Shown one piece after another: positions 12,090-57,959 of a stretch of 64,000 nucleotides of DNA. The DNA is from an uncultured Bacteroidales bacterium (GTDB lineage Bacteria > Bacteroidota > Bacteroidia > Bacteroidales > Paludibacteraceae). The notes under the pieces are model-generated. The model saw nothing but the letters and a program-made list of their open reading frames with translations. It made no database searches and had not been told where the DNA came from. Where the stretch lies: contig CADBWK010000003.1 in assembly GCA_902798385.1 (NCBI GenBank), positions 1 to 64,000 on the forward strand. The letters run 5' to 3'. The first letter of the stretch is position 1; each line of letters starts with the position of its first letter. The position numbers and the translations under genes are program-made.

Positions 12090-12110
12090 GGTTATTGGTT
12101 ATTGGTTATC
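12090..12110. repeat. Heptad repeat, unit GGTTATT, 3 copies
   Basis: Three adjacent 7-base units (the last with C at the end) lie between ftsA and ftsZ and contain the ftsA stop codon (12099-12101). Confidence 0.75.
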
Positions 12111-13382
12111 AATAAACATATCGAGTGTTGATTCTTTCATTCGGTCAAAGAACCCCGGTTTCTGCACCAGTTTGTCTTTGTGATTATCGCGGTAGTCCTG
12201 CCCGAGCAGGAGGGTTCCTACCAGCGACGTGTATTGCGGCGAGAGGTATTTATCGTCCGTATCACGATGGAGGAGTAAGTTATGCGCTCCGTACTGAACC
12301 GTGATGGGGGTCAGCGTCTGGATATAATCCGCCATGCCTGCCATCATCGATCCTCCACCGGTTATATAGAGCGTCTTGATGCGGCTCTCCACTTTCTTGA
12401 GTTCCTCCATCAGCGGCGCGAGTATCTCATGCAGTTTGAGTTCGATGGCTTCTGCCAACTCTTGCGCTGTGATGATCATGTCGCCACCTATCTCGGACGC
12501 CGCGGGGATGCGCAAACGTACGTTCTTCTCCACGAAAGCAGGCGATGCACAACCGTATTGTTTCTTGAGCACCTCTGCCGTATTGAAACTCATTCCTTGC
12601 TGCTCCAGCATACGCGTGATATGATAGCCGCCTTTGGGCACAACCTTGTTGATCAGGTACTGCCCGCCTTTATAAACCGTCAGACTCGTGGTCTGCGCGC
12701 CGAGGTCGAGTACCGCACAACCGTTCTGCAGCACATGATTGCCGTCGCAGGTGGCAAACGCAGACAACAAACACTCCGGACGAACGAACGCATGTTCAAT
12801 GCTACGCCCGGCTTGAGAGAAGGACTTCTGCAACTGCGTGTCGATCGCCTTACGGCCGTAGAATGCGATATAATGGGCTTCTACCAGAGCAGCGCGCTGT
12901 TCCGGCGAAGGTGTCTCATCCTGCTCTACGCCGTCTAACTTGAAATACGAAGGAACAAGTCCTAAGACCGCCACCTCCGGGTTGCGGAGTTCGATCTTCT
13001 GCTTGCACTCCAGTTCCATCTCATCCAGCAGCGCCTGACTGATCTCTTTGCGCCGCGCCTGGTCGCGCTTCGAGTGCACCGCCACGATCTGCATGGACTG
13101 TCCGCCGATGGATAGGAAAGCCGTCGGTAACTCATCTACGCCGATGCGGTTTGCCAGTAGTTTGAGCACTTCAGCGATGACGTATCCGGCGTTACTGGAC
13201 TGCGTGATCACGCCCTGCTCCACACATACATTGCCGAGTTTCTGCGGACGCTCCTCCACGCCGATGATCTGGAACAGATCCGGTGCTATGCGCCGTGCCG
13301 CCATGGCACGTACACTATCGCTACCCAAGTCCAATGCCACCAGAGGAAGCGAGGCTGCTGTTTGTGTTTGTTTTCTTGCCAT
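12099..13382 (-). CDS. ftsA: Cell division protein FtsA
   Basis: FtsA is the actin-like ATPase that tethers FtsZ to the membrane and recruits later division proteins. The 427-residue protein begins with the phosphate-1 motif VALDLGSDSVRAMAA and has ALVEAH and CAVLDLGAQTTSLTVY (phosphate 2), with TLYITGGGSMM as the adenosine motif. The C-terminal 20 residues (about DRMKESTLDMFID) form the expected amphipathic membrane anchor. It lies between ftsQ and ftsZ as in most dcw clusters. The stop falls inside a 7-base tandem repeat. Confidence 0.96.
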   Translation of the reverse strand: MARKQTQTAASLPLVALDLGSDSVRAMAARRIAPDLFQIIGVEERPQKLGNVCVEQGVITQSSNAGYVIAEVLKLLANRIGVDELPTAFLSIGGQSMQIVAVHSKRDQARRKEISQALLDEMELECKQKIELRNPEVAVLGLVPSYFKLDGVEQDETPSPEQRAALVEAHYIAFYGRKAIDTQLQKSFSQAGRSIEHAFVRPECLLSAFATCDGNHVLQNGCAVLDLGAQTTSLTVYKGGQYLINKVVPKGGYHITRMLEQQGMSFNTAEVLKKQYGCASPAFVEKNVRLRIPAASEIGGDMIITAQELAEAIELKLHEILAPLMEELKKVESRIKTLYITGGGSMMAGMADYIQTLTPITVQYGAHNLLLHRDTDDKYLSPQYTSLVGTLLLGQDYRDNHKDKLVQKPGFFDRMKESTLDMFIDNQ

Positions 13383-13399
13383 AATAAAGTAGTTAAAGT

Positions 13400-14100
13400 T
13401 TAGTTTCGTCCGATGACTTGCCCACGAAAGCGCAAGTCCAATTCCGTATATCGCTTGGCTTGTACCTCTTCGGGACTGTTCTCGAGGAAAGTACGCAATT
13501 TGGTCAGTTTTTGTTCATAGCGCGTCATGTTACCCAATACTGCCCGCGGTTGGTTCTCACCTTTCATATAGACATATACCATCTGCGGCGATTGTACATG
13601 CACGTGATGCACCCGCTCATGCCAATATTTATTGTCTTGTAACCACAACGCAAAATCTGCCAGTTGGTGCGCAGCGAACTGCGGTCCTACCGCACCGGTC
13701 GCCACAAGCACTTTATCCGTCACCGCCGTGCGTACGGGCATCACTTTGCGGTCGGTGTCAATGAAATAGATATCTGCCGGCATCTGGACGCGCAGCAACG
13801 GCACACGTTGCGTCAAGCGCACCCGCACCTCATATCGCGGGGTGACGTAGCACTCTGCCGTTCTTACCATCGGATGATGCAAGATCGTCCCACAGGGTAA
13901 ATATGTTCCGCCTCTAATACCTGATTCAACTCGTTCGGCGTGAGGTACAAACGCTCGTTTTGGTCCTCGATGATATAGGTTATCGTGCGACAAGGCTGCT
14001 CCGACGGACGCATGCGTACGCCCAAGACCACCGCTGTGATCAGCAGTGCCGCCACGAGGCTGATGCCTACACTCTTCCATATGATACGAGCATTAACCAT
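13400..14100 (-). pseudogene. ftsQ: Cell division protein FtsQ, frameshifted
   Basis: FtsQ is a bitopic divisome protein with a POTRA domain. The ATG at 14100 opens a frame with a transmembrane helix (about residues 10-27) and the start of the POTRA domain (CRTITYIIEDQNERLYLTP), but it stops at 13864 just after IYPVGRS. The rest (from ILHHPMVRTAECYVTP through LTQRVPLLRV to the end at 13400) is in another frame. Compared with other Bacteroidales FtsQ proteins as I remember them, about 13 codons plus one base are missing at the junction near 13870-13890. Position between murC and ftsA fits ftsQ. It could be a true lesion, a recoding site or an assembly deletion; ftsQ is usually essential, so an error is plausible. 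Confidence 0.8.
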
Positions 14101-14118
14101 TCACCATTAAGCATTAAC
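14091..14118. repeat. Heptad repeat, unit CATTAAC, 4 copies
   Basis: Four 7-base units span the murC stop and the ftsQ start codon. The plus-strand unit CATTAAC is GTTAATG on the coding strand, which supplies the ATG. Confidence 0.8.
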
Positions 14119-15489
14119 CAATGCCTTGGCCACATCGGGGACGAGGCGATCTATATCACCTGCACCGACTGTTAAAATCACTACGGGTTCCCGGCTCTCC
14201 GCCACGCGTTTCTTCAGTTCTGCTACCAGGTCTTTCTTCTCCACCACCTGCCCGCCGAGCATCTCACTCGTCACGCCCGGTATCGGTTCTTCGCGTGCCG
14301 GGTAGATAGGCAGCAGGATCAGTTCATCCATCGTGTGCAATACCCTACTGAAATCCGCTGCAAAATCGCGTGTGCGGGTATAGAGGTGCGGTTGGAAGAC
14401 ACCGATCAACTTGCGCTCAGGGAACAGCTTACGGATCGAATCAATGGCCGTTGCTATCTCCTGCGGGTGATGGGCATAATCATCAATGTACGCCACCTTC
14501 GGGGTATGAACGTGGATATTAAACCGTCGTAACACGCCTTTGAAAGAAGCCACACCGCGATGTAGTTCATCGGCCTTCACTCCGTTGAGCCAAGCCACCG
14601 CCATGGCTGCCACCGCATTCTCGATATTCACCCAAACGGGTACTCCGAGTTGCAAGTCACTTATCGTCTCCGTCGGGGTATGGAAATCGAAATGTATCTC
14701 ACCGTTCCCCACGCGGATATTGTCCGCATAGAAATCCGCCTCCTCGGTCATCGAATAGGTGTAGCATTTCACGCCGGGTTGCAGCCGAGGTTGCAGTTCG
14801 ATCCCTTTCTTCATGACCAGTGCACCGGTGATGAGGCTCGTGTAATGCGCAAAGGCCTCGCGATAAGCTTCCGGCGTACCGTATATATCCAGATGATCGG
14901 CATCGACGGCCGTCACAACGGACATATATGGGGTCAGATGATGGAAAGAGCGGTCGTATTCATCCGCTTCTACCACCACATACTCGCTGTCTTTGTCCAA
15001 GAGCAGATTGGTGTTGTAGTTCATACTGATTCCGCCGAGGAAGGCATTCGTGCCGAGCGGCGACTGATGCATCAGATGCGCGAGCATGGTACTGGTTGTC
15101 GTCTTACCGTGCGTACCGGCCACACAGAGCGCCTTCATCTGACGCGTCACGAGTCCTAATACCTCCGCGCGCTTGCGGATATCAAAACCCTGCTCACGAA
15201 GATAGGTATAGATGCTGTTTTGCTCCGGTACAGCCGGCGTACGAACCACTAAAGTATCCGCAGGAGAAAAATCTAAAATCTTAAATTTTAAATCTTCAAT
15301 TTTTAAATGATCATCCCCATAGATGATCGCTATTCCTTCGTCTTCCAACTCTTTGGTCAAGGCAGAAGGTGTACGGTCATAACCGGAAACGGGATATCCG
15401 CGGTGATGAAAATAGCGCGCCAAGGCACTCATTCCGATGCCTCCGATACCCAAGAAAAAGATATTTTGTATGTCGCTATGCGAGATCAT
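14107..15489 (-). CDS. murC: UDP-N-acetylmuramate--L-alanine ligase
   Basis: MurC adds L-Ala to UDP-MurNAc with ATP, the first amino acid of the stem peptide. The 460-residue protein has the Rossmann start FFLGIGGIGMSALA (about 11-24), the ATP loop AGTHGKTT at 124-131, and the Mur central and C-terminal domains (VEADEYDRSF, IDDYAHHPQE). Residues 62-75 (LKIEDLKFKILDFS) are encoded by a 7-base tandem repeat and look like an in-frame expansion between two N-domain strands. It is first in the murC-ftsQ-ftsA-ftsZ unit, with its own divergent promoter at 15515-15545. The other dcw genes are not adjacent here. Confidence 0.97.
   Translation of the reverse strand: MISHSDIQNIFFLGIGGIGMSALARYFHHRGYPVSGYDRTPSALTKELEDEGIAIIYGDDHLKIEDLKFKILDFSPADTLVVRTPAVPEQNSIYTYLREQGFDIRKRAEVLGLVTRQMKALCVAGTHGKTTTSTMLAHLMHQSPLGTNAFLGGISMNYNTNLLLDKDSEYVVVEADEYDRSFHHLTPYMSVVTAVDADHLDIYGTPEAYREAFAHYTSLITGALVMKKGIELQPRLQPGVKCYTYSMTEEADFYADNIRVGNGEIHFDFHTPTETISDLQLGVPVWVNIENAVAAMAVAWLNGVKADELHRGVASFKGVLRRFNIHVHTPKVAYIDDYAHHPQEIATAIDSIRKLFPERKLIGVFQPHLYTRTRDFAADFSRVLHTMDELILLPIYPAREEPIPGVTSEMLGGQVVEKKDLVAELKKRVAESREPVVILTVGAGDIDRLVPDVAKALVNA
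15271..15305. repeat. Heptad repeat inside murC, 5 copies of ATCTTAA-like units
   Basis: Five A/T-rich 7-base units lie in frame within murC and encode a Lys/Asp/Leu/Ile-rich stretch at about residues 62-74. Three units equal seven codons, so gain or loss by threes keeps the frame. Confidence 0.75.
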
Positions 15490-15571: not shown

Positions 15572-16897
15572 ATGAGAAATTTTTTTGTTTGCATATTGTT
15601 TTTTGCCTGTTTACAGGCATTGGCACTCCCTCATTATGAGTTAGCCTACCGGTTGAGCGGGTCGGGCGCGATGATGATGAAGGACGGCAAAGTGGATCAA
15701 TGGATTCAGCGTCCGGTCTTGGGAGGACAGTTTGCAGTCGAGTTTCTGCCAACCGGTCGATGGCATTGTTTGCAACAATGGAACAACGCCTCCATCGGTG
15801 TCGGCGTGAGTTATCTGAATCTGGGCAACGACAAGTACTTAGGCAGCGCAATCGCGGCCTACGGCTATATGAACCAGCCTTTCTACAACGGTACGCATTT
15901 CCGTATCGGCATTCGCCCCACGGTGGGTCTGGCGGCGGTGACGAAGACTTATGCCAACACCCTACCCGACGATGTACCGCCTTATACGAAAGCGCGCGAT
16001 AGTGAAGGTAAGTTGATAGCCAACTGGTCGATCGGTTCGATTCTCAATGCTTATCTGGCGCTGGAGATGTACATGGACTTCCCCATCAAAGACGGCTGGG
16101 AAATCACGCTCAGCGGTGGTTGGCATCATATCAGTAACGGTTCTTTCATGCACCCGAACGCGGGATATAATATGTTCGGAGGCGAGCTGGGACTGCGCTA
16201 CACGCCCGGAATGGATGAAAGGGTGAAAGGATTAAAGGATGAAGGGTATCAGAAGCCCGAACCGGATGTTCCTCGCAAGCTCTATGACGGCGTCGATAAG
16301 CCTTGGGCGGTGGAGATCAGCGCTACGGGTGGTGCGAAGCAGAACTACTATGCCGACAATCAGAACGGTCAGCGGTTCTACGGCGTAGCAACGCTCAAAG
16401 CAGCGGCTTATTGGGTTCCGGTGTCGATCTTCCGTATCGGTGCGGGTGTAGACGCTTTCTACGACGGCTATTACAGCGCCGTGAACGATGAGTACAAGAA
16501 CGATAACCCGGGTGCGCCCGTCACTTATTTCGGAAAGACCTACCTGGCCAAGAGTGAGGTGAAGAACTGTTTCCGCGTAGGTATCAGTCTGCAACCGGAG
16601 TTCATCATCGGTAAGCTCACCGCCGGTATCCATGTGGGATTCTATGTGTTTGACCCGGTCAAGAACCTCGAGCCTTATGACGAAGCGAAAGCGGCTGCAC
16701 AGAAAGGTGAATCGCTCGATCGGGGTGTTTTCTATAAGTATGATTTCTCGAAAGCCAGCAATTATCAGGACGGCTGGTGCTATATGCAATTCGTGCTCAA
16801 GTATCATGTACTTGACCACCTGTTCGTTCAGTTGGGTCTAAAGACCCACGGTGTACGGGCTGAGTTTATAGATGCCGGTTTAGGCGTTGCTTTCTAA
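15572..16897 (+). CDS. PagL-like lipid A deacylase (acyloxyacyl hydrolase family)
   Basis: This is an outer-membrane beta-barrel of 441 residues with a signal peptide (about 1-18, ending ALA-LP). The N-terminal half matches PagL-type lipid A 3-O-deacylases: GWHHISNGSFMHPNAGYN holds the catalytic His186 and Ser188 of the H-x-S-N-G motif. The place where Pseudomonas PagL has its catalytic Glu appears to be Asn here, so activity is not certain. The C-terminal half (about 230-441) is a further barrel-like region ending in F, usual for outer-membrane proteins. The start at 15572 was chosen over an upstream one at 15437 because the latter lies before the promoter. It overlaps the next, convergent gene by 18 bases. 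Confidence 0.75.
   Translation: MRNFFVCILFFACLQALALPHYELAYRLSGSGAMMMKDGKVDQWIQRPVLGGQFAVEFLPTGRWHCLQQWNNASIGVGVSYLNLGNDKYLGSAIAAYGYMNQPFYNGTHFRIGIRPTVGLAAVTKTYANTLPDDVPPYTKARDSEGKLIANWSIGSILNAYLALEMYMDFPIKDGWEITLSGGWHHISNGSFMHPNAGYNMFGGELGLRYTPGMDERVKGLKDEGYQKPEPDVPRKLYDGVDKPWAVEISATGGAKQNYYADNQNGQRFYGVATLKAAAYWVPVSIFRIGAGVDAFYDGYYSAVNDEYKNDNPGAPVTYFGKTYLAKSEVKNCFRVGISLQPEFIIGKLTAGIHVGFYVFDPVKNLEPYDEAKAAAQKGESLDRGVFYKYDFSKASNYQDGWCYMQFVLKYHVLDHLFVQLGLKTHGVRAEFIDAGLGVAF
16213..16244. repeat. Octamer repeat inside the PagL-like gene, unit GGATGAAA, 4 copies
   Basis: Four 8-base units encode DERVKGLKDEG (about residues 205-215) between the deacylase half and the C-terminal half. This is an in-frame expansion of a linker or loop. 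Confidence 0.75.
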
Positions 16898-18001: not shown

Positions 18002-18966
18002 CAGATCTCTTCTTTGATCAGATAATCATTACGGCTCGGGCTGTTGCGGATGACGAGTTCTGCCAGGAAGCCGGCCAAGAACAGCATACAACCCAAGATC
18101 ATCATCAAGATCGCGATGTGGAAATACGGGTTGACGCCCACGAGCATAGCGGCTACACCATGCGACAGGGCGTAGAGCTTCATGCTGCCCACTACGATGA
18201 CCGCGATAAAACCGATAAAGAACATCAGACTGCCCACGAGGCCGAAGAAATGCATGGGTTGCTTGCCGAACTTATTGAGGAACCACAAGGTCATCAGATC
18301 GAGGTAGCCGTTCACGAAGCGGTTGATACCGAATTTAGAGGTACCGAACTCGCGTTTGCGGTGCTGAACGACCTTCTCGCCGATCTTTGTAAAGCCCGCA
18401 TTCTTAGCCAGGTACGGGATATAACGGTGCATCTCAGAGAAGACCTCGATATTCTTCACCACTTCGTTGCGATAAGCCTTCAGGCCGCAGTTCATATCGT
18501 GCAGTTGGATGCCCGTCACTTTGCGCGCGGTGGCGTTGAAGAGCTTGGACGGCAGGTTTTTGGTCAGTTTGTTGTCAAAGCGTTTCTGCTTCCAACCGCT
18601 CACGAGGTCGTAGCCGTCCTTTGTGATCATGTCATAGAGCTCGGGGATCTCATCCGGCGAATCCTGCAGATCGGCGTCCATCGTGATCACTACATCACCC
18701 TGCGCAGCCTTGAAACCGCAGTACAACGCAGCCGACTTGCCGTAGTTACGACGGAAACAAATGCCACGAACGTGCTCATCCCGTAACCCGTCACCCGTAA
18801 CCTGTAACCCCTGGATGACTCGCCACGAGTCATCCGTGCTGCCATCATTCACGAAAATAACCTCATAGGAGAACTTGTTCTCCTTCATCACGCGTGCGAT
18901 CCACTCATAGAGTTTCGGCAGCGATTCCGCCTCATTAAACAGAGGCACTATAATCGAAATATCCAT
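18001..18966 (-). CDS. Family 2 glycosyltransferase with two C-terminal TM helices (GtrB/ArnC-like)
   Basis: This is an inner-membrane glycosyltransferase, GT-A fold, of the polyprenyl-phosphate glycosyltransferase type (DPM1/GtrB/ArnC). MDISIIVPLFNEAESLP starts the fold, with VNDGSTDDSW, the metal motif TMDADLQDSPDE and the acceptor-region FRRNYGKSAAL following. Two hydrophobic helices lie near residues 230-255 and 270-295. Such enzymes move a sugar onto undecaprenyl phosphate. The start at 18966 gives the conserved N-terminus; in-frame ATGs at 18981 and 18975 are possible. Residues about 54-65 (GLQVTGDGLRDE) come from a 7-base repeat. It is co-translated with the 373-residue gene. Confidence 0.9.
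   Translation of the reverse strand: MDISIIVPLFNEAESLPKLYEWIARVMKENKFSYEVIFVNDGSTDDSWRVIQGLQVTGDGLRDEHVRGICFRRNYGKSAALYCGFKAAQGDVVITMDADLQDSPDEIPELYDMITKDGYDLVSGWKQKRFDNKLTKNLPSKLFNATARKVTGIQLHDMNCGLKAYRNEVVKNIEVFSEMHRYIPYLAKNAGFTKIGEKVVQHRKREFGTSKFGINRFVNGYLDLMTLWFLNKFGKQPMHFFGLVGSLMFFIGFIAVIVVGSMKLYALSHGVAAMLVGVNPYFHIAILMMILGCMLFLAGFLAELVIRNSPSRNDYLIKEEI
18780..18807. repeat. Heptad repeat inside the glycosyltransferase gene, unit CCCGTAA, 4 copies
   Basis: Four 7-base units encode the VTGDGLR-like insertion just before the conserved FRRNYGKS segment. Related proteins as I remember them have a short loop here. Confidence 0.75.
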
Positions 18967-19021
18967 ACTTCTCATCTGCATAGTTTATCCTGCTCCGGTT
19001 CTAAACCGGCCTTTGCGGCTG

Positions 19022-19502: not shown

Positions 19503-19550
19503 TTTTTTCGTTATTTCCTTCTATTTGTTATATAATATTGTTGTGTTTCT

Positions 19551-19664
19551 CATATGCCGTTCATATGATAATCTTATGTGATTCATATGTTATTCTTATG
19601 TTATTGCTATGTTATTCATATGATATTTTCCTAATTATCACCTAATTATCTCGTAATTATTACG
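19551..19664. repeat. 11-base periodic array in a long leader
   Basis: TATG occurs at 19553, 19564, 19575, 19586, 19597, 19608 and 19619, exactly 11 bases apart seven times, mostly within a unit like TTATTCATATG. After a 2-base phase shift, TAATTAT occurs at 19632, 19643 and 19654, again 11 apart. Weaker TAC-starting units follow at 19665 and 19676. The array lies in the predicted untranslated leader of the 138-residue gene. This 309-base gap (19490-19798) holds no other gene. Confidence 0.85.
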
Positions 19665-19709
19665 TACATTTCCGTACCGTTTTAATTACATACTTAGGAA
19701 AATTTGCGA

Positions 19710-23155: not shown

Positions 23156-25195
23156 ATGAAAAAGTCTATTTTTCTTCTTGCTTTTTCCCTATGTCTGATA
23201 GGGTGTCAACAACACAATCACATGGCCGGAACGATCGGGGCATCGAATCCTATTATGCCGATTCGTATGACAAGCGACACGATGCATGTCGTGCTGACGG
23301 ATTATGTGCCGGCATTGTACGGTGATCCCAAGGCGTGGAAAGGTCTGCAGTGGACGACGAGTGAGTCCGTGGAGTGCCTGAACATTAGCGGTGCAGCGCC
23401 TGTCATCGACGAGATGGATATCGTTAACCGCGACCGTTCGATCCATGCGTTCACGATGCATGACAAGAGCGGCAGTTTTGCCATCCCTATCCTACCCAAC
23501 AAGCCCGTTCGGCAGGCCTTGATATCCTTGGGCTATGCGGATAATAAGCTCATCTTCGGTTTCTATGACAGCGTCACCAATCCTTCTTTTGATGCCTATA
23601 TCCAGAACACCCTCATCGACCATGAGCGTATCAGCGCCAATGAGGATGGGACATGGACGTTGGATATTGGAAATTTGACATTGGATAATTTACAGGGACG
23701 CACGTATCTGCGGATCTTTGCCGAGGATGACACGTACCTCTACAACGACCTGTTGCTTCCGATGCAGGATGGTCAAATCATTACGGATGCCGCACAACTG
23801 AACCGCCATGACCAACAGGCGCAAGTGCTCTACTCGCTGATGATCGACCGTTTCTACAACGGCAATAATGCCAACGACTGGAAGATGAACAGTCCGGAAG
23901 TACTGGATATCGTGGATTACCAAGGCGGCGACCTCGCCGGTATCACGAAGAAGATCTCCGAGGGATATTTCGATCAACTCGGTGTGAACACGCTCTGGAT
24001 CAGTCCGATCACGCAGAACCCATGGGATGCCTGGGGCTGCTACCCGTTCAAGAACGGCAACAAATACGACAGCACGAAGACCTATACCAAGTTCAGCGGT
24101 TATCACGGTTATTGGCCTATCTATGCAACCAAGTTAGACGACCGCTTCGGTACACCGGACGAGTTCCGCACCTTGTTAGATACCGCGCACGCGCACGGGA
24201 TCAACGTCGTGCTGGACTACGTAGCGAACCACATGCATATCAACTCCCCGACCCTGCAGCAACACCCCGATTGGCATACAGACTCTATCCTACCCGACGG
24301 ACGCCGTAACTTCGAGTTATGGGACGAAGCGCGCTTGACGACATGGTTTGACAAACATATCCCGACGCTGGATCTGGAGCGCGAGGAGGTTTGCGAGCAG
24401 ATGACGGACAGTGCGTTATACTGGCTGGAGAACTACGAGTTGGACGGTTTCCGTCACGATGCATGCAAGCATATTCCGGAAGGTTACTGGCGTATGTTAG
24501 GACAGAAGATCGCAACGCGCTGGCCGGGACGTCCTATCTGGATGATCGGCGAGACCTACGGCAGCCCGGAACTCATCGGCAGTTATGTGAAGACCGGAAT
24601 GCTGAACGCGCAGTTCGATTTCAATGTGTATTTCACTACCCGCGAGGCCTTGATGGGTCTGACCGGTATGGATCAAGTGCTTCAGAACGAGTTGACGTCG
24701 CTCCGCACCTACGGTGCGCACCACACGATGGGTAACATCAGCGGTAACCACGACCAGATCCGTTTTGCTTCTATCGCCGGCGGTGCCATCGATATCCATG
24801 CGTATGGCAAAGAGGAAGGCTGGACACAGGAGATCGGTATCGGCGATGCAGAAACAGCGTATAAGCGTGCGTTGCTGCTCGAGGTGATCAACCTGACGTT
24901 GCCCGGTGTGCCGTGTATCTATCAAGGCGACGAGTACGGAGAAGTGGGCGGCAATGATCCCGACAACCGCCATATGATGCGCTTTGACAATATCAACGAG
25001 CAGGAAAAGGCAATGCGCGACAAAGTGGCAGAACTGATCCATTACCGCCGCCACTCGATGCCGCTGCTCTACGGCGATATGATTCCGCTGATCGACCGTC
25101 CGGACGAGATCATCTACCAGCGTATCTATCTGGGTAAGAAAGTGACGGTGATTATCAATCGTAGCGATCTCACGTATGAGATCATTGAAGATTGA
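23156..25195 (+). CDS. GH13 alpha-amylase-type lipoprotein
   Basis: The 679-residue protein has a lipobox LIGC (Cys17), so it is anchored in a membrane. An N-terminal beta-rich region (about 30-215) precedes a GH13 barrel. Catalytic residues are visible: nucleophile Asp435 in DGFRHDA, acid Glu466 in MIGETYG and Asp533 in GNHD; DYVANH is conserved region I. It would cleave or rearrange alpha-glucans or maltodextrins. No SusC/SusD genes are near, so it is not part of a normal uptake locus. A 7-base repeat (23660-23694) encodes part of the N-terminal region, and another covers the stop. The start upstream at 23132 (TTG) lies in the promoter and was rejected. Confidence 0.92.
   Translation: MKKSIFLLAFSLCLIGCQQHNHMAGTIGASNPIMPIRMTSDTMHVVLTDYVPALYGDPKAWKGLQWTTSESVECLNISGAAPVIDEMDIVNRDRSIHAFTMHDKSGSFAIPILPNKPVRQALISLGYADNKLIFGFYDSVTNPSFDAYIQNTLIDHERISANEDGTWTLDIGNLTLDNLQGRTYLRIFAEDDTYLYNDLLLPMQDGQIITDAAQLNRHDQQAQVLYSLMIDRFYNGNNANDWKMNSPEVLDIVDYQGGDLAGITKKISEGYFDQLGVNTLWISPITQNPWDAWGCYPFKNGNKYDSTKTYTKFSGYHGYWPIYATKLDDRFGTPDEFRTLLDTAHAHGINVVLDYVANHMHINSPTLQQHPDWHTDSILPDGRRNFELWDEARLTTWFDKHIPTLDLEREEVCEQMTDSALYWLENYELDGFRHDACKHIPEGYWRMLGQKIATRWPGRPIWMIGETYGSPELIGSYVKTGMLNAQFDFNVYFTTREALMGLTGMDQVLQNELTSLRTYGAHHTMGNISGNHDQIRFASIAGGAIDIHAYGKEEGWTQEIGIGDAETAYKRALLLEVINLTLPGVPCIYQGDEYGEVGGNDPDNRHMMRFDNINEQEKAMRDKVAELIHYRRHSMPLLYGDMIPLIDRPDEIIYQRIYLGKKVTVIINRSDLTYEIIED
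23660..23694. repeat. Heptad repeat inside the first GH13 gene, unit TTGGATA, 5 copies
   Basis: Five 7-base units encode TLDIGNLTLDNL (about residues 169-180), an in-frame expansion in the N-terminal beta-rich domain. Confidence 0.75.
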
Positions 25196-25228
25196 AGATT
25201 GGAGATTGGAGATTGGTGATTGGTAAAT
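25187..25228. repeat. Heptad repeat between the GH13 genes, units GAAGATT to GGTGATT, 6 copies
   Basis: Six 7-base units drift from GAAGATT to GGAGATT to GGTGATT across the array. The first units contain the stop codon of the upstream GH13 gene. Confidence 0.85.
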
Positions 25229-25238: not shown

Positions 25239-26504
25239 ATGAAAAAGACACTCTTTTTTGCGCTGGCTCTGATCGGTTTGATGAGCTGCGCCAAGCAAGC
25301 AGAGGAGTTGCGTCACCCGAAATGGGCGTATGACGCTACTATCTACGAGTTAAACACCCGTCAGGCCACGCCGGAAGGTACGTTCGCCGCTGCGGAAGGT
25401 TTGTTACCGATGCTCAAGGAGAACGGCATCGACATCATCTGGGTGATGCCCTGTCAACCGATCGGCGTTATTACCCGCAAAGGTACGCTGGGCAGTTACT
25501 ACTCGATCATCGATTACTGCGCCATCAACCCCGAGTTCGGTACACGTGCCGACTTTGAGCATTTCCTGGCGAAAGCACACAAAATGGGCTTTAAGGTGAT
25601 CTTGGACTGGGTGGCTAACCACACGGCACCGGACAGCGAGTGGACGAAGATGGTTCAATACGACTGGACGGATATCTCCAAACTGAACTACGAGAACCAA
25701 GACATGCGCAACGAGATGCTCAAATGCATGCATTGGTGGATGGACTCGATCGGCATCGACGGTTTCCGTTGCGACGTAGCGGGTGAAGTACCGACTGATT
25801 TCTGGAACTGGGCAATGAGCGATCTGCGTCAAACCCACCCGGACATGTTCACCCTCGCAGAGGATGAGGACAAGGCCGACGAGTTGACCGAGAGTGCGTT
25901 CGATATGTACTACGGCTGGAGCCTGCATCACGTGATGAACGATATCGCACAAGGCAAGGCTACCGTAGAAGACCTGTGGGCTAACCTCGCTAAGACAGAT
26001 AGCACCATTCGTCCCGAAGCCATCCGTATGAACTTCATCACCAACCACGACGAGAACAGCTGGAACGGCACGGAGTTCGAGCGTATGGGCGACGCCGTGA
26101 AACTGTTTACCACCTTGTGCTATTTCCTCCCCGGCATGCCGATGATCTACACCGGTCAGTTGAGTGGTAACCACCATCGTCTGGCGTTTTTTGAGAAGGA
26201 CGTGATCGATATCGACGAAGAGCACGCGCAGGCTGAGTTCCTCCATAACATGAACCTGATGCGTAAGCACAATCCTGCGTTGTTTAGCCCGGAAAAGGGT
26301 GCTCCGCTGGAGCGTATCGGATGCGACAACGAGGCTATCTTCGCCGCCAAACGATGCTTGAGAGAAGGCAAAAAGGTGAATGAAGTGATTGCCGTAATGA
26401 ACATGTCCGACCAACCGCAGAAAGTTACGCTGGAAAACGGCGAGACGTATGAGTTCGAGCCGTGGAAAGGTATGATTAGCTTCGAGCAGGGAAAGAAGGA
26501 ATAG
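25239..26504 (+). CDS. Second GH13 alpha-amylase-type lipoprotein
   Basis: The 421-residue protein has lipobox LMSC (Cys17) and then a GH13 barrel with almost no N-terminal extension. Catalytic residues are Asp179 (DGFRCDVAG), Glu208 (FTLAEDED) and Asp271 (ITNHDEN); DWVANH is region I. It differs from its neighbour in lacking the N-terminal domain, so the two probably act on different alpha-glucan substrates or sizes. It follows 43 bases after the first gene with only a repeat between, so they share one transcript. A strong hairpin terminator follows. Confidence 0.92.
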   Translation: MKKTLFFALALIGLMSCAKQAEELRHPKWAYDATIYELNTRQATPEGTFAAAEGLLPMLKENGIDIIWVMPCQPIGVITRKGTLGSYYSIIDYCAINPEFGTRADFEHFLAKAHKMGFKVILDWVANHTAPDSEWTKMVQYDWTDISKLNYENQDMRNEMLKCMHWWMDSIGIDGFRCDVAGEVPTDFWNWAMSDLRQTHPDMFTLAEDEDKADELTESAFDMYYGWSLHHVMNDIAQGKATVEDLWANLAKTDSTIRPEAIRMNFITNHDENSWNGTEFERMGDAVKLFTTLCYFLPGMPMIYTGQLSGNHHRLAFFEKDVIDIDEEHAQAEFLHNMNLMRKHNPALFSPEKGAPLERIGCDNEAIFAAKRCLREGKKVNEVIAVMNMSDQPQKVTLENGETYEFEPWKGMISFEQGKKE

Positions 26505-26531
26505 ATTATTGATTATTGATTATTGATTATA
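26504..26531. repeat. Heptad repeat, unit GATTATT, 4 copies
   Basis: Four nearly perfect 7-base units begin at the last base of the GH13 stop codon and end just before the terminator hairpin. Confidence 0.85.
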
Positions 26532-26534: not shown

Positions 26535-26568
26535 AAAATAAATCCCGCGAGATGCGGGATTTATTTTT
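26535..26568. terminator. Bidirectional terminator between GH13 and fabG
   Basis: A perfect 14-bp stem (left arm 26535-26548, right arm 26554-26567, core AAATCCCGC/GCGGGATTT) with a 5-base loop has A-rich and T-rich outer arms. It can therefore stop transcripts from both sides. It also covers the fabG stop codon. Confidence 0.9.
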
Positions 26569-29272: not shown

Positions 29273-29309
29273 AATATAAATATTTTGTGTTAGTAATTTT
29301 CTCTTTTTA

Positions 29310-29357
29310 GGATCCTAGGGTCCTAGGGTCCTAGGTTACTAGGTTACCAGGTTACAA
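29310..29357. repeat. Octamer repeat, units GGGTCCTA to GGTTACCA, 6 copies
   Basis: Six 8-base units run across the gap between the barrel gene and the TPR gene. The unit changes from GGGTCCTA-type to GGTTACNA-type half way. The rest of this 102-base gap shows nothing recognisable. Confidence 0.8.
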
Positions 29358-29374: not shown

Positions 29375-30601
29375 CTACAATTTGCGTTTGAAGAACCAGT
29401 TCTCCGCGATGGAAGCGCCGATGGTAAAACGCAATGCGTTCTCTTCCAGTCCCGCCAAACTGCCACGATGGGTGTACTCGATGGTTGTATTGATGACCGT
29501 ACCGATCGTCCAAAGCGGGAAGCCGATACCTATCGAGGCTGTGACACGTTTCGCACCGACCATCGTCAGATACTCATCTTGCACGTTTATGCCGGCACGC
29601 CAAAGCATACGCTCCACATACTTACGTCCTAAGGGATTATGGCGGTACTCGACGCCGAACGCGAAACGATTCTTGTCCTGTAAGCCGCTGTAACGTCCTT
29701 CTGCGCCGTTATACAACGCATCAGCCATGCATTGGCGCTCAAAATCAAAGCCTATCGTCAAGCGATTGGCCCAGTTATAACTGGCACCTACACCCCATAC
29801 CATCGGTAGTTGCCAACCGTCTTTGTAGATAGGAATCGAGTCAGAGGTCTGGGTCTCTATCAGAATAAAATCGCTGTGCAGTTTCATCTTGCTCTCAAAG
29901 ATCGCACCGAGGTTCATGGTGTGATTGCCCCAGGTATGAAAGAACTGCGCACCATAACGGAAACGCACATTGCTCACGCTCAGGATGACATCCTGGATCG
30001 TCGTATTGAGCCCGCTCTCCTTGAAGGTCAATGCACGAGCATGGGTGAGATCACCCCACATATAATAAACGTTCGCGCCTACGGCAAACCAGTTCAGCAC
30101 ATTAAAGCTCAAACCGCCATAGACCTGGCTGATATTTCCGTCTCCGACATAGGTCTTTGCATAGTGGTACTCGCCTTTAGCGGTTGAGTCACTCAGTTCA
30201 ATATTGTACCCCACCGAACTATAGGGCAACAAACCCACCGACATCGCGATCCAACGCTTGTACAACGGGAACTGCAAGGTAACGTACTCCAGGTTACCGT
30301 TAGCCTTGTTTTTCTTTCCTCCCGCGTCCGCATAACGACTCCAGTTCGCGCTGGCTGCCACATCCATCATGAAGGTAAGCGTGTCGCAGGAAGTATAGGA
30401 AGCCGGTTGAGAGGGGTTGATAGCGCGGTTGTTACGCATACCAAAGCCTACTCCACCCATCGCACGATAGCCGGTCGGTACGTTCTCATTCAGATCACCA
30501 TACGCTTCGCGCGAGTACGGCGAACTCGTCATATTCTGCGCCCCAGCCCCAACGCTCATCAGCAACGCAGCGATACATACTATAAATTTGTCAATCTTCA
30601 A
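29375..30601 (-). CDS. Outer-membrane beta-barrel protein, FadL/OmpP1-like
   Basis: The 408-residue protein has a signal peptide (about 1-21, ending GAGAQ) and regular alternating strands with aromatic residues. It begins NMTSSPYSREAYGDLN and has GYRAMGGVGFGMRNNRAINPSQPAS, a pattern of Bacteroidales FadL-like barrels that may carry hydrophobic molecules. It lies between coaX and the TPR gene. Its start is TTG at 30601, overlapping the coaX stop by 4 bases, and both lie in a 7-base repeat. No upstream ATG fits the signal peptide. Confidence 0.8.
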   Translation of the reverse strand: MKIDKFIVCIAALLMSVGAGAQNMTSSPYSREAYGDLNENVPTGYRAMGGVGFGMRNNRAINPSQPASYTSCDTLTFMMDVAASANWSRYADAGGKKNKANGNLEYVTLQFPLYKRWIAMSVGLLPYSSVGYNIELSDSTAKGEYHYAKTYVGDGNISQVYGGLSFNVLNWFAVGANVYYMWGDLTHARALTFKESGLNTTIQDVILSVSNVRFRYGAQFFHTWGNHTMNLGAIFESKMKLHSDFILIETQTSDSIPIYKDGWQLPMVWGVGASYNWANRLTIGFDFERQCMADALYNGAEGRYSGLQDKNRFAFGVEYRHNPLGRKYVERMLWRAGINVQDEYLTMVGAKRVTASIGIGFPLWTIGTVINTTIEYTHRGSLAGLEENALRFTIGASIAENWFFKRKL

Positions 30602-30618
30602 TTTTCTATCTTCAATTT
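30591..30618. repeat. Heptad repeat, unit TCAATTT, 4 copies
   Basis: Four 7-base units contain both the coaX stop and the TTG start of the barrel gene. The repeat therefore encodes the last residues of CoaX and the first of the barrel protein. Confidence 0.75.
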
Positions 30619-31362
30619 GTTATAAACCAGTATATTATTCAGTCCTATCAGCACCAGATGTTTCTCGAAACGGATCTCCCGTTTCTCGTTGCGCGAGGAG
30701 CGCACGTTGTTGAGGATGTACGGTGCGTGCCCTCCGGTGAGAAAAGTCTGATAATGCGGCATTTTCTCTTTGAGTGTACGCATATATCCCTTCACCTCAT
30801 ACGCCACGCCCCGTATCACGCCAGCCGCGATCGCATCGCGGGTGTTGGCTCCGAAAAGCGGAATCAGTTCGTTCTCCTCCGCCTCCACCATCGGCAGTTT
30901 TTTGGTCATGCGTTGCAGCATCGTGAAGCGCATCTTGATGCCCGGCGCAATGTTTCCTCCCATGTACTCACCCTCCGCCGACACGAAGTCATACGTGATG
31001 GCCGAGCCGGCATCGATGATGAGCAAGTTCTCGTTCGGACACAGACTCTTCGCTCCTACTGCCGCTGCCAACCGGTCTTGCCCCAAGGTCTGCGGCGTAT
31101 CGTAACGATTCACGATGGGCACAGGCGTCATATGATCGAAGAGGACGAAATGTTGCGACCGACGATGAAGCGTATTGACCACAGCCGCCTCTATATCCAC
31201 CACCGACGAGATGATCGAGTCCGTGATGTCATACAGATCAAAGAGACGCTCTACATCCGCTGAGGAGAAGGACTTATAGATGAGATGCTTCATGATCTTG
31301 CCCTCATCCGTCATCAGCGCCACTTTGGTTCGGCTATTTCCCTGGTCAATACAGAGGTTCAT
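30598..31362 (-). CDS. coaX: Type III pantothenate kinase
   Basis: CoaX phosphorylates pantothenate, the first step of coenzyme A synthesis. The 254-residue protein of the acetate/sugar kinase/actin fold has CIDQGNSRTK with Asp6, the GQDRLAA motif and DAGSAITYDFV, all typical of type III enzymes. Its ATG overlaps the acyl-CoA ligase stop by 4 bases. The C-terminal residues KLKIEN are encoded by a 7-base repeat. Confidence 0.95.
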   Translation of the reverse strand: MNLCIDQGNSRTKVALMTDEGKIMKHLIYKSFSSADVERLFDLYDITDSIISSVVDIEAAVVNTLHRRSQHFVLFDHMTPVPIVNRYDTPQTLGQDRLAAAVGAKSLCPNENLLIIDAGSAITYDFVSAEGEYMGGNIAPGIKMRFTMLQRMTKKLPMVEAEENELIPLFGANTRDAIAAGVIRGVAYEVKGYMRTLKEKMPHYQTFLTGGHAPYILNNVRSSRNEKREIRFEKHLVLIGLNNILVYNKLKIEN

Positions 31363-35551: not shown

Positions 35552-36427
35552 TCATACGAGAGCCTTCACAAGGCTCTCTTTTGTTCCCGGAAGCAGATCG
35601 ATCGGAGCCAACTCTATCATTGTCTTAGCACCATACTCACCACGCTCTTTGAGACGCAGTGCCGCGCGTGCACAGGAGACCATGACTTGGCCGGTGAGGG
35701 CGGGGTTGTTGATGGTCATATTGAATTCAAAACGCTGGTTATGCGTTTCTCCCGAGACACCATTACGAACGAGGTTCACGCCATGGGCGACGTTATTGAG
35801 CGCGTCCACGCTCTCGACGGGAATGACATGCGTCTCATCGTGGGCGAAATAGTCGTCCGCGAGGATCGCGGCTTCGACTGCTTTGAAGTCAGCACCTTCT
35901 TCGAGTTCGACATAGACCATACGGCGATGGATACCTGTACCCAAGGGGATGGTCATCGAAAGGGCATTCTTCACGCCCGGTTTGGACTTCGCAGCCACGG
36001 TATGGCCCATCGAACGACCGGGACCGAAGTTCGTGTAAGTGAGTCCTTTCGGCGCCAGCGCCATGAGCAGCGCACGCACCATAGAGTCCGATCCCGGATC
36101 CCAACCGGCAGAAATGATACTGACGGTTTGGTTGGCCGTACAAACGGCGTCTAAGGCGCTACGAAGCGACCATATCTGACCATGGATATCGAAACTGTCG
36201 ACCGTACAGATTCCGCGTGCAGCGAGCACGGTGGCGAACTTCTGCACTTCGCGTGTCGGCGTACAGATGAGCACGGCATCTGCATCGATACAATCGAGAC
36301 AATCATTATGATGGAAGATACCAGCTAACTCTATATCGGGAGCAGCCTTAATGGCTTCTTCGGCGGCTTTGCCTATGTTGCCGTAACCGAGGATCGCTAC
36401 GCGAATTTTTGATTTTTGATTTGACAT
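35552..36427 (-). CDS. ddh: meso-Diaminopimelate dehydrogenase
   Basis: Ddh makes meso-diaminopimelate from tetrahydrodipicolinate in one NADPH-dependent reductive amination. The 291-residue protein has the Rossmann motif VAILGYGNIGKA (about 10-21), then FHHND, VDSFDIHGQI, SAGWDPGSDSM and the FGPGRSMGH substrate region, all diagnostic. It follows glmS by 7 bases. Its first codons are encoded by a 7-base repeat. A second route to the same product (dapL-dapF) is encoded 2 kb away. Confidence 0.95.
   Translation of the reverse strand: MSNQKSKIRVAILGYGNIGKAAEEAIKAAPDIELAGIFHHNDCLDCIDADAVLICTPTREVQKFATVLAARGICTVDSFDIHGQIWSLRSALDAVCTANQTVSIISAGWDPGSDSMVRALLMALAPKGLTYTNFGPGRSMGHTVAAKSKPGVKNALSMTIPLGTGIHRRMVYVELEEGADFKAVEAAILADDYFAHDETHVIPVESVDALNNVAHGVNLVRNGVSGETHNQRFEFNMTINNPALTGQVMVSCARAALRLKERGEYGAKTMIELAPIDLLPGTKESLVKALV
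35558..35583 (+). terminator. Terminator of fbp, inside the ddh 3' coding end
   Basis: GAGAGCCTT (35558-35566) pairs with AAGGCTCTC (35570-35578) over a 3-base loop, followed by TTTT. The structure lies in the last codons of ddh on the opposite strand. Confidence 0.75.
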
Positions 36428-36437
36428 TTTTGATTTA
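36403..36437. repeat. Heptad repeat, unit TGATTTT, 5 copies
   Basis: Five 7-base units cover the glmS stop and the ddh start and encode the first residues of Ddh (MSNQKSKI). Confidence 0.8.
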
Positions 36438-38288: not shown

Positions 38289-38323
38289 GTTATTTGTGAT
38301 TTGTAATTTGTGATTTGTAATTT
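38289..38323. repeat. Heptad repeat in the glmS leader, units GTAATTT/GTGATTT, 5 copies
   Basis: Five 7-base units, mostly alternating GTGATTT and GTAATTT on the plus strand, fill almost the whole predicted untranslated leader of glmS. Confidence 0.85.
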
Positions 38324-41909: not shown

Positions 41910-42533
41910 TTATGAATTCAAATGAATAGTTGATAAAGTACATATGCGGTAGAGGTTGCAGCCGATGAAGTTTCCAAATACGATAGAAACGTAATACGCG
42001 AGCAACGCTCCCCATGGGATATCGGTGGTATTAAACAGATAGACGCAGCAGTAAAAAGCGTCTGCAACACAGTGCGGGAAGCCGCATAGAATGAACGCCG
42101 GCACGGCAAAGAGGAGCGGCAGCCAATCTGATAAATCCCTGTTTCGTCGAGCAAAATCCACGGCAAACGACATGAGCAGTCCGCATCCGATAGCAAGCAG
42201 TCCGGTGCCGAGCCACCCAACGCGAAGACGTGCATCGATGATGCCGATGGCAGCTTCGGGAAGTGCGAGCGGTGAATAAAGGGACACGGCAGCCACCGCC
42301 ATACATCCGACAATATTGCCGAGCAAAATCACCAGCAACGGTAGCACATCGCCCCACCCCGTCAAAAATCCGGCCGTACCGGTATAGAGTTTTACTCGGT
42401 ATTTGACCACACCGATGAGTCCGACACAGAAGAGAAACATACCTAACTCGGGGTTCGCAAGAAAACCCCATCCGGCAATCGCAATAAGTATTCCGGCAAA
42501 GAAGGCGGATATTGGTAATTGGTAATTTGTCAT
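41910..42533 (-). CDS. Formate/nitrite transporter (FNT) family channel, short form
   Basis: The 207-residue inner-membrane protein has six hydrophobic helices. Helix 2/3 reads GLIGVVKYRVKLYTGTAG, and GFPHCVADAFYCC matches the FNT motif G-F-x-H-x-x-A-N/D-M-F that carries the central pore histidine. YVSIVFGNFIGCNLY matches the GN-x-x-GG motif. It is shorter than FocA or NirC (about 260-280 residues), mainly in loops and tails. It likely passes formate or another small anion. It sits in the nucleotide run with formate-using purT. Its start overlaps the aspC stop by 4 bases within a 7-base repeat. Confidence 0.8.
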   Translation of the reverse strand: MTNYQLPISAFFAGILIAIAGWGFLANPELGMFLFCVGLIGVVKYRVKLYTGTAGFLTGWGDVLPLLVILLGNIVGCMAVAAVSLYSPLALPEAAIGIIDARLRVGWLGTGLLAIGCGLLMSFAVDFARRNRDLSDWLPLLFAVPAFILCGFPHCVADAFYCCVYLFNTTDIPWGALLAYYVSIVFGNFIGCNLYRICTLSTIHLNS

Positions 42534-42538
42534 TTTAA
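42511..42538. repeat. Heptad repeat, unit ATTGGTA, 4 copies
   Basis: Four 7-base units contain the aspC stop and the FNT start codon and encode MTNYQLPI-type residues at the FNT N-terminus. Confidence 0.8.
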
Positions 42539-46126: not shown

Positions 46127-46161
46127 GATTGTCGATTGTGGATTGTCGATTGTGGATTATT
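46127..46161. repeat. Heptad repeat, units GATTGTC/GATTGTG, 5 copies
   Basis: Five 7-base units, the first four strictly alternating GATTGTC and GATTGTG and the last GATTATT, lie between carB and purC and contain the carB stop. Confidence 0.85.
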
Positions 46162-56364: not shown

Positions 56365-57926
56365 CAGTGTTTGAAATGACGCATGCCGGTGAAGAGCATC
56401 GTGATATGATGGTTGTTGGCAGCCTCGATACTCTCATTGTCGCGAACGCTACCACCGGGTTGTACAATAGCCGTGATACCGTATTCGGCAGCGCTCTCTA
56501 CGCTGTCGCCAAATGGGAAGAAACCGTCGGAAGCCATCACAAGTCCCGCCTCGCGGATATCTTTTCCATCTGCGGCCAGACTCTCCTGCGCCTGCTTAAG
56601 CGCAATAGCAGCCGATCCTACCCGATTCATCTGACCAGCTCCGACACCGTATGTGCGACCGTCCTTCACCACCACGATCGCATTGGATTTCACATGCTTG
56701 ACGATCCGCCATCCGAACTGCAGATCCGTCATCTGCTCCTCCGTCGGTTTAACCTCCGTCACGCACATATTCTCCGTCAACGTGATCGTCTCCGTATCCT
56801 GTTGCTGCGCCAACAAACCGCCGTTCACCGATACATACTGCATCTTTTTGCCGCTCAGCGGACGCATATCCACTTCGAGCAAGCGCAGGTTCTTCTTCGT
56901 CTCCAGCACTTCAAGGGCTTCGTCCGTGAACGAAGGCGCCATAATAATCTCCAGGAAAATAGGTTTCATCAGCTCCGCCATCTGCTTATCTACCGCGCAG
57001 TTGGTGGCTACAATACCACCGAAGATGGACACTTTGTCCGCCTCATAGGCTTTCGTCCATGCTTCCACACCGTCTTTGCCGATGGCAGCACCGCAGGGAT
57101 TCATATGCTTGAGCCCTACGCAGAAAGGCGTGTTACCGAACTCGCGCACGATATTGAGTGCCGCGTTAGCATCCTGGATATTGTTATACGACAGCTCTTT
57201 GCCGTGCAATTGACGGGCACTTGCCAGCGAATACGGCACTTGCTCCATCGAAGCGTAGAATTTCGCATCCTGATGGGGGTTCTCGCCGTAGCGCAGGCCT
57301 TGCTTGAGGTCGTATTCAAGGAACAGCTTCTCATTCAATCCCGCTGCCTTACGCATATACGTAGCGATACACATATCGTACTCCGCAGTGTGGGTATAGA
57401 CTTTGGCACTCAGCTCAAGACGCGTCTGCTTGCGCGTGTTACCTTCGGTCTGAATCTCGTGCAGCACCCGCGGATAGTCCGTCGGGTCGCATACTACGGT
57501 GACGTCATTCCAGTTCTTGGCGGCCGAGCGCAACATCGACGGACCGCCGATATCGATCTTCTCGATAGCCTCCTCCATGGTGGTACCCTCTTTGGCTATC
57601 GTCTGACGGAAGGGATACAGGTTCACGCATACCAAATCAATCAGTTCGATCCCGTTCTGCCTCAATGCCTCCATGTGGGACGGTTCGTCACGACGGGCCA
57701 ACAAAGCCCCGTGCACCTTGGGATGCAAGGTCTTCACACGACCGTCGCAGATCTCCGGAAAACCCGTCACTTCACTGATACCGATGGTCTTTACACCACT
57801 CTCTTCCAGCAGTTTCTGTGTACCGCCGGTTGCAATGATCTGCCATCCTTCTGCTTGCAGACCCTGCACGAACGCCACCAAACCGGTTTTGTCACTTACG
57901 CTCACTAATGCTCTTTTCTGTACCAT
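56364..57926 (-). CDS. purH: AICAR transformylase/IMP cyclohydrolase
   Basis: PurH performs the last two steps to IMP. The 520-residue bifunctional protein has the cyclohydrolase N-domain (RALVSVSDKTGLVAF, VKTLHPKVHG) and the transformylase C-domain (LRYGENPHQDAKF, KHMNPCGAA with Lys-His, ending GMRHFKH). It needs 10-formyl-tetrahydrofolate, probably from FolD. It lies between purM and purD. Confidence 0.97.
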   Translation of the reverse strand: MVQKRALVSVSDKTGLVAFVQGLQAEGWQIIATGGTQKLLEESGVKTIGISEVTGFPEICDGRVKTLHPKVHGALLARRDEPSHMEALRQNGIELIDLVCVNLYPFRQTIAKEGTTMEEAIEKIDIGGPSMLRSAAKNWNDVTVVCDPTDYPRVLHEIQTEGNTRKQTRLELSAKVYTHTAEYDMCIATYMRKAAGLNEKLFLEYDLKQGLRYGENPHQDAKFYASMEQVPYSLASARQLHGKELSYNNIQDANAALNIVREFGNTPFCVGLKHMNPCGAAIGKDGVEAWTKAYEADKVSIFGGIVATNCAVDKQMAELMKPIFLEIIMAPSFTDEALEVLETKKNLRLLEVDMRPLSGKKMQYVSVNGGLLAQQQDTETITLTENMCVTEVKPTEEQMTDLQFGWRIVKHVKSNAIVVVKDGRTYGVGAGQMNRVGSAAIALKQAQESLAADGKDIREAGLVMASDGFFPFGDSVESAAEYGITAIVQPGGSVRDNESIEAANNHHITMLFTGMRHFKH

Positions 57927-57931
57927 ATTTG

Positions 57932-57959
57932 AACTCTAAACTCTAAACTATAATCTCAT
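57932..57959. repeat. Heptad repeat, unit AACTCTA, 3-4 copies
   Basis: Two perfect copies plus one or two weaker units lie between purM and purH and contain the purM stop codon. Confidence 0.7.

Follow-up and report, generated by a model that had tools for sequence, protein, structure and literature searches.

Contig 3 (CADBWK010000003.1; 141.8 kb) of an uncultured Bacteroidales bacterium of the Paludibacteraceae begins with a 64-kb stretch, here called the window, that carries short tandem arrays, mostly of 7-bp units, with a unit that differs from site to site. We propose, with a probability that we put at somewhat under one half (about 0.47), that these arrays are the products of a mutational process (fold-back, stuttering 7-nt template switching and then slippage) filtered by selection; we do not take them for binding sites or promoters. 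In this scheme, a 3′ end on the G-rich strand would fold back during replication or repair and copy itself, creating a hairpin arm, and would then stutter on a short template in 7-nt steps; this stutter would sometimes be primed on another array in the genome, allowing the vocabulary of units to spread, before the end was rejoined. Later slippage would add or remove units and keep the copies alike, while selection would purge most intragenic arrays and spare those that lie at gene ends or in protein segments able to tolerate them.

Period 7 and its multiples dominate the repeat spectrum. The genome to which the window belongs (G000; 1.92 Mb in 44 contigs, 74% complete) was sampled as the window plus 40 stretches of 20 kb, 864 kb in all, and repeats were scored with a strict lag test (match +1, mismatch -2; score at least 11 in the window and at least 12 in the sample), using ten local dinucleotide shuffles as the null for the window and five shuffles for the sample. 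Lag 7 was found at 11 places in the window versus a mean of 0.0 in the shuffles, lag 8 at 2 places (16209 and 29308) versus 0.2, and each remaining lag from 4 to 13 at 0-2 places. The 864-kb sample held 117 lag-7 segments, the five shuffles 1, 0, 1, 0 and 0; lag 14 gave 68 segments and lag 21 gave 26, and further lags gave 17 (lag 8), 16 (11), 12 (22), 11 (9), 6 (12) and 0-3 (4-6). Tandem 7-mers are thus in excess over both shuffled sequence and other periods, as expected of heptanucleotide simple sequence repeats, and the initial annotation, which had listed sixteen arrays and had staked them on a lag-7 excess over shuffled sequence, is borne out. Tandem Repeats Finder (TRF; minimum score 30) reported arrays of period 7, 8 or 14 for 15 of these 16 sites; the sole exception, 43697, is a weak GGGTTAT/GGGTTAG/AGGGTAT run.

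The arrays extend to relatives of this bacterium, which, where their FtsA is 50-98% identical, are named as uncultured Bacteroidales, Paludibacteraceae or Bacteroidia bacterium, many of the names pointing to ruminant fore-stomachs or gut. Fifty-three ftsA loci of such relatives (911 kb) contained 150 lag-7 segments, and one shuffled copy contained 0. Array density was 13.5, 26.8, 20.8 and 11.9 per 100 kb in the four most-sampled genomes (240-864 kb each) and 0-10 per 100 kb in twelve other genomes of the genus (20-60 kb sampled each; nearest relative, G003, 5.2). Outside the genus arrays are sparse: 'same family' stretches held 12 lag-7 segments in 371 kb (5 of 20 stretches), 3 of the 12 sitting in a same-genus stretch (L204), and other families of the order held 6 in 379 kb (3 of 20 stretches), with 1 in the shuffle. 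A second repeat class, of period 11 (22, 33), is present at 19550-19666 of the window with units TTCATATGTTA and TAATTATCACG; lags 11 and 22 are in excess genus-wide (31 and 26 segments in 911 kb; 13 and 6 in 200 kb of distant members).

A minority of arrays is bordered by hairpins, and these hairpins are polar. On the C-rich strand of the array, a perfect hairpin (stem at least 7, loop 3-8) abuts the 3′ end in 33 of 387 cases and the 5′ end in 6 (two-sided p 1.4e-5), in coding sequence (17 vs 2 of 168) as well as in intergenic sequence (16 vs 4 of 219); a fixed window at the array edge (stem at least 7) gives 33 vs 5 of 387, where shuffled flanks lead one to expect 1.6. Seen on the G-rich strand, the favoured side is the 5′ one. 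This polarity was first noticed in G000 (16 vs 3 of 110) and was then checked in the remaining loci (17 vs 3 of 277), duplicates having been removed only where array flanks were identical. Loops of 3-4 nt are the commonest (34 of 53 flanking hairpins). Longer perfect hairpins, with a stem of at least 9, lie within 30 nt of 7.7% of G000 arrays and of 0.1% of random places; the corresponding values in the other three genomes are 3.1, 6.0 and 0% versus 0.2-0.4%. Among 12 array-bearing stretches from the family, the order and distant members of the genus, an abutting hairpin was found at one array only (L182). Coding DNA at large shows no consistent hairpin excess, the ratio of observed to one shuffled set at a stem of at least 8 being 0.91, 1.12, 1.82 and 0.67 in the four genomes.

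Hairpin and array also tend to come together, because a hairpin (stem at least 6) is present at 8 of 49 orthologous places with an array nearby and at only 4 of 170 without one, against a background of 1.6%, in a comparison of 13 sites that are unevenly represented. This is the pattern expected of template switching, in which the hairpin accompanies the event and is missing from relatives that lack it, and the hairpins tied to arrays resemble the products of such switching. Quasipalindrome work in E. coli reportedly describes template-switch mutations that make perfect hairpins. In the accessible part of one account, such mutations appear as short perfect inverted repeats, often with 3-4 nt loops, that stem from a local event (PMC8794818); those described here are likewise short and perfect, but are tied to one side of a heptamer array. 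A more specific form of our proposal, which we hold to be rather doubtful, is a bacterial end-processing activity that, after folding back a 3′ end, would extend the G-rich strand by a number of 7-nt units at once, resembling the templated insertions of polymerase theta. The in-frame arrays in a gene that is probably essential suggest such a joint arrival of several units, since a gain of +7 or +14 there would be a frameshift.

Each sampled genome has its own characteristic, strand-asymmetric vocabulary of units, which is common to unrelated sites. The 117 arrays of G000 use 58 different dominant units. Unrelated sites within a genome share the same dominant unit in 283 of 10447 pairs (2.71%), compared with 263 of 23391 pairs between genomes (1.12%) and 0.15% for random intergenic heptamers; sharing within genomes is therefore 2.4 times that between genomes and ~18 times that of random heptamers, and 0 of 200 label permutations reach the observed value. 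With overlaps counted, the G000 sample (864 kb) contains 8 copies of doubled GATTTTT and the three other samples (~240 kb each) none, and doubled AATTTTC occurs 10 times among the four genomes, in G035 only. One-sided G or C is found in 53% of units versus 33% expected, a G/C strand asymmetry. The loose G-R-x-T-x-x-T pattern that had been discerned by eye agrees with the circular profile of the 117 arrays (reverse complement KKWNATT, that is, GATTGGT rotated), whose mean score is 3.17 versus 2.24 (sd 0.04) in ten sets of position-permuted units, and profiles differ among the four genomes (scores against permuted units 3.17/2.24, 3.46/2.45, 3.84/2.44 and 3.39/2.77). The earlier description of copies as alike within a site and unlike between sites holds, except that, within one genome, unrelated sites have units in common far more often than chance would give. 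In G091, the same CCCTAATCCCTAACCCC array with flanking hairpins lies near the start of three contigs (L167:188, L173:195 and L174:30) and is perhaps a repeat that breaks assembly.

A genome-specific vocabulary, as exemplified by the doubled units confined to G000 or G035 and by the permutation result, could also be generated by ectopic copying, in which arrays would act as miniature mobile repeats and a broken or stalled end would invade another array and copy a few units. Members of a family, however, do not share the order of their variant units beyond chance (0 of 5 families within one genome; 18-100 of 100 null sets reach the observed value), which lends no support to direct block copying, and a genome-specific mutation bias could yield the same vocabulary. 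We consider ectopic copying as the source of the arrays to be unlikely.

The arrays of the window and the hairpins next to them are located as follows.

12089..12109, plus strand: three copies of 7-bp TGGTTAT at the junction of ftsZ (10837-12081) and ftsA (12099-13382), overlapping the ftsA stop; G003 has a shorter non-array sequence.
14091..14117, plus strand: 7-bp CATTAAC where the murC-like Mur ligase gene (14107-15489) meets gene 13400-14080.
15268..15308, plus strand: 7-bp AAAATCT/AAATCTT, in frame inside the murC-like gene, with hairpin GATCATC/GATGATC at distance 8.
16209..16243, plus strand: 8-bp GGATGAAA inside predicted gene 15671-16897.
18780..18810, plus strand: 7-bp CCCGTAA/CCCGTCA, in frame inside a family-2 glycosyltransferase gene (18001-18981).
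18813..18835, plus strand: perfect hairpin GGATGACTCG-CCA-CGAGTCATCC, separated by 3 nt from the 18780 array and lying 3′ of it on the array's C-rich strand.
23660..23687, plus strand: 7-bp TTGGATA inside an alpha-amylase-family gene.
25166..25183, plus strand: perfect hairpin GATCTCA-cgta-TGAGATC, directly to the left of the 25184 array, which is the 3′ side of its C-rich strand.
25184..25224, plus strand: 7-bp ATTGAAG/ATTGGAG/ATTGGTG at the junction of two amylase-family genes, the unit changing gradually along the array.
26504..26530, plus strand: 3.9 copies of 7-bp GATTATT between two converging gene ends; absent in G003.
29308..29355, plus strand: 8-bp TCCTAGGG then CTAGGTTA, intergenic.
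30585..30620, plus strand: 7/14-bp AATTTGTCAATCTTC at the junction of a type III pantothenate kinase gene (30598-31362) and gene 29375-30601.
36405..36436, plus strand: 7-bp ATTTTTG at the 5′ end of gene 35552-36427 (diaminopimelate dehydrogenase C-terminal domain); G003 has an ATTTATG-type array.
38292..38323, plus strand: 7-bp ATTTGTG/ATTTGTA, intergenic, upstream of gene 36435-38279.
42511..42535, plus strand: 7-bp ATTGGTA at a gene junction.
46127..46158, plus strand: 7-bp GATTGTC/GATTGTG with a 14-bp super-period, between SAICAR synthetase and carbamoyl-phosphate synthase large-chain genes.
57932..57957, plus strand: 7-bp AACTCTA where an AICARFT/IMPCHase gene adjoins an AIRS-family gene.

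The genes of the window appear to be of ordinary housekeeping type, including ftsZ, ftsA, the murC-like Mur ligase gene, purine genes and those for CTP synthase, carbamoyl-phosphate synthase and fructose-bisphosphatase; gene 13400-14080 has no Pfam match and is ftsQ by position only. RNA families and tRNAs were sought in the window and none were found. A protein encoded at 22422-23117 matches the zeta-toxin and AAA_33 Pfam families, and a strong terminator-like hairpin, AAAATAAATCCCGC-gagat-GCGGGATTTATTTT, lies between converging genes at 26535-26567.

By gene coordinates from our own hexamer-based caller, a gene boundary is touched by 33% of the 117 G000 arrays and by 3.9% of random places; the thresholds of the analysis were set manually. 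The initial annotation had placed the arrays on gene junctions, and this excess agrees with it, but half of the arrays are wholly intragenic (58 wholly inside predicted genes, 34 straddling an edge and 25 intergenic). Array bases amount to 15.3 per kb between genes and 2.8 inside them, 5.5-fold lower, and not to the equal density that would have told against a link with gene ends. Because so many arrays are wholly intragenic, and because the intragenic ones recur at the same codons in different species, gene ends are probably places where arrays are tolerated. The boundary excess, together with terminator-like hairpins such as the one after 26504, could instead reflect functional elements at gene ends, acting in transcript ends, translation control or protein binding. 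Yet the C-rich strand within genes is sense in 67 cases and antisense in 47 (p 0.07; four genomes), and the arrays show no preference for either side of the GC skew (80 vs 96, p 0.26); this lack of a significant orientation bias speaks against an RNA-level function and disfavours the shared role in transcript ends that had been suggested. Given also that half of the arrays are intragenic, that units are many and that different units occupy the same site, functional elements are a very improbable explanation.

Comparison of orthologous sites shows arrays that persist at some places while gaining and losing units. Where both sides carry arrays, 40 of 55 noncoding rows differ in length by some multiple of 7 (12 of them by zero). 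In coding rows the difference is a multiple of 3 in 79 of 80, so that the reading frame is nearly always kept, and of 21 in 41 of 80 (33 of these zero); the rows are not independent, since related genomes repeat and some rows represent one pair twice or one site. Arrays of 30-34 nt make up 87 of 157 in genes versus 79 of 239 outside, and no stop codon occurs in the murC-like segment in 52 translated rows. Once duplicate assemblies had been merged, the unit was found unchanged in 7 of 8 pairs with flank identity of at least 93% and 1-2 substitutions apart in 5 of 8 coding pairs at 87-93%, and at 80-87% the distances came closer to those of random arrays (82% of which differ by at least 3 substitutions), with units at least 3 substitutions apart in 25 of the 38 pairs from coding and 13 of the 22 from noncoding sequence. 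As judged from these pairs, which are few and related, this suggests concerted drift, in which copies stay alike while the unit wanders. A one-step swap of whole arrays at each site was considered and dropped, as the distances fit gradual change somewhat better; unrelated units do occupy one in-gene site in L052/L053, whose flanks are ~95-96% identical, and a short block is replaced in the glycosyltransferase gene of L048/L049.

The in-frame arrays illustrate these changes. At about the same codons of the murC-like gene as the 15268 array, other species carry arrays of different units, the segment before 'TLVVRTP' holding arrays of many units in some species and none in others. At the codons of the 18780 array, orthologs of the glycosyltransferase have either no array or one built from another unit; between 'VIxxL' and 'GICFRRNYG' the protein segment is short in 7 of 21 rows, and in others it contains in-frame arrays of at least 4 different units. 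In G003, the place of the 14091 array is taken by an AAATCTT-type array and that of the 23660 array by a GGGTTAC-type array whose 40-nt flanks are near-identical to those in the window. The 16209-16243 array, by contrast with most others compared, lies within ~60 nt that are identical in G003 despite differing surroundings. In relatives, arrays are also replaced or interrupted by other short fillers, among them hairpins such as GGCGCT-AA-AGCGCC and CCTCCC-rich runs, located at L052/L053 around 5215, 5640-5830 and 20030 and in the L076 glycosyltransferase gene.

Plain local slippage, in which any heptamer beside a pause site is copied repeatedly, in 7-nt steps dictated by the footprint of the polymerase, and arrays survive where harmless, would account for the gain and loss of units in 7-nt steps and for copies that remain alike although species differ in the unit. 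That footprint has been invoked to explain why bacterial repeats favour 7 nt (PMC4679880 and PMC4692102, citing Mrazek 2007, in the sections available), and by inspection the four different glycosyltransferase units each hold a codon for the conserved Leu. Furthermore, an array and its own empty site share longer strings than permuted pairs do (coding, 4.59 vs 3.82; noncoding, 5.00 vs 4.26), with 0 (coding) and 1 (noncoding) of 300 permutations reaching the observed sharing, so some arrays may have had a local seed, although this small but significant excess is due in part to a few partner sites with a decayed array. Conversely, only 8 of 59 arrays have at least 7 nt in common with an array-less ortholog (flanks 82-97% identical), although these orthologs may have lost the seed. 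This count, together with the vocabulary shared within genomes, argues against purely local amplification, and the description of the arrays as locally amplified is thus incomplete. Nor would slippage be expected to place units at unrelated sites of one genome well above the level between genomes or to accompany hairpins that are rare without an array, and its one-unit steps would be frameshifts in a probably essential gene. We regard slippage by itself as somewhat unlikely. The suggested slippage or repair process acting at gene ends is supported as a process, by the 7-nt steps in noncoding rows and the array-linked hairpins, but gene ends are not needed.

Several observations weigh against fold-back and stuttering as the general origin of the arrays. 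An abutting hairpin (stem at least 7) is found on only 8.5% of arrays, so fold-back cannot be shown for the rest; 16 of the 33 hairpin cases come from one genome, and a single murC site, seen in two species, accounts for two of them. Hairpins are no more frequent at purer arrays (10, 12 and 11 when arrays are split into thirds by purity), and 70 of the 170 array-less orthologs come from two sites of one genome. If fold-back had copied a native arm, the far arm should be conserved, and this was so at 12 of 21 sites and contradicted at 8 (mean identity 0.68 vs 0.57). The slightly longer strings shared by an array and its own empty site fit a local seed in some cases, variant order gives no sign of block copying, and no array birth event was caught.

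Candidate enzymes were sought in 61 same-genus genomes. Ku was found in none, some of the genomes being incomplete, and Ku-dependent end joining is accordingly not indicated. Loss of mismatch repair, as judged by mutS1, was rejected as the cause, because this gene is over the cut-off in 56 of the 61 genomes, that of the window included. SbcD, a hairpin nuclease subunit, passes the cut-off in only 10 of the 61 genomes G000-G060, and not in G000 or G035. RNA-templated addition, by a reverse transcriptase of telomerase-like or diversity-generating type, would resemble the formation of telomere repeats in its extension of a G-rich strand with fixed polarity. However, a reverse-transcriptase domain (RVT_1) was found in 2 of 7 relatives searched and in none of the four most-sampled genomes; it is missing from G000 (74% complete), G035, G091, G034, G004 (95-97%) and G097 (83%), and the units are too many for one template; such an origin is exceedingly improbable.

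Heptamer repeats as such are known, while the variable vocabulary and polar hairpins appear to be new. In cyanobacteria, short tandemly repeated repetitive (STRR) heptamers and small dispersed repeats comprise heptamer arrays of fixed units associated with small hairpin-forming repeats. The published systems compared below are characterised from the accessible parts of the respective reports. TAACTGA direct repeats occur in the Beggiatoaceae, some Cyanobacteria and five Bacteroidetes including Paludibacter, two of which also have other heptamer repeats in intergenic regions, and have been proposed as functional elements in transcript ends, translation control or protein binding (MacGregor 2015, PMC4679880). 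Like those repeats, which are mostly intergenic, the arrays described here are 7-bp tandem arrays near gene ends and some lie inside ORFs, but the TAACTGA repeats have one fixed unit and lie mostly just upstream of starts, in contrast to the 58 dominant units in 117 arrays, the array-linked hairpins and the preference for stops over starts seen here (stop nearest in 43 and start in 17 of the 60 arrays at most 20 nt from a predicted gene boundary). The GGGAATC repeats of Xanthomonas and the GGGGA(T/C)T repeats of Nostoc (Rehm 2015, PMC4692102) are likewise heptamer arrays, often of ~4 units, whose length and sequence vary at the same intergenic places between related species; their unit, however, is fixed and of G-quadruplex type. 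Doubled TAACTGA, GGGAATC and GGGGA(T/C)T each occur 0 times in 1.59 Mb of the four genomes. Long heptanucleotide simple sequence repeats have been described across prokaryotes, with 7 nt as a favoured period and slippage as the proposed cause (Mrazek 2007, via PMC4679880 and PMC4692102), and differ from the arrays described here, half of which are intragenic and which have genome-specific vocabulary and polar hairpins. Bacterial repeats whose unit is not a multiple of three are described as staying mostly outside genes; here, 58 of the 117 arrays are wholly intragenic, albeit at the lower density per kb given above. The bacterial and Bacteroidales heptamer-repeat literature, of which parts were accessible and few subscription journals were covered, yielded no description of a vocabulary particular to each genome or of hairpins linked to one side of an array.

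The preference of bacterial tandem repeats for 7 nt has been described before but, in the accessible literature, explained only tentatively so far. G000 alone offers 117 arrays in its 864-kb sample, dozens of relatives supply orthologous sites, and a minority of arrays shows a defined polarity and a linked hairpin, so that the mechanism that generates such repeats becomes testable in these bacteria. Here, repeats of a non-triplet unit supply in-frame peptide segments in conserved, probably essential enzymes. If the more specific, doubtful form of our proposal is true, the fold-back end-processing activity would have written new peptide segments into conserved enzymes and would have given each genome its own repeat dialect.

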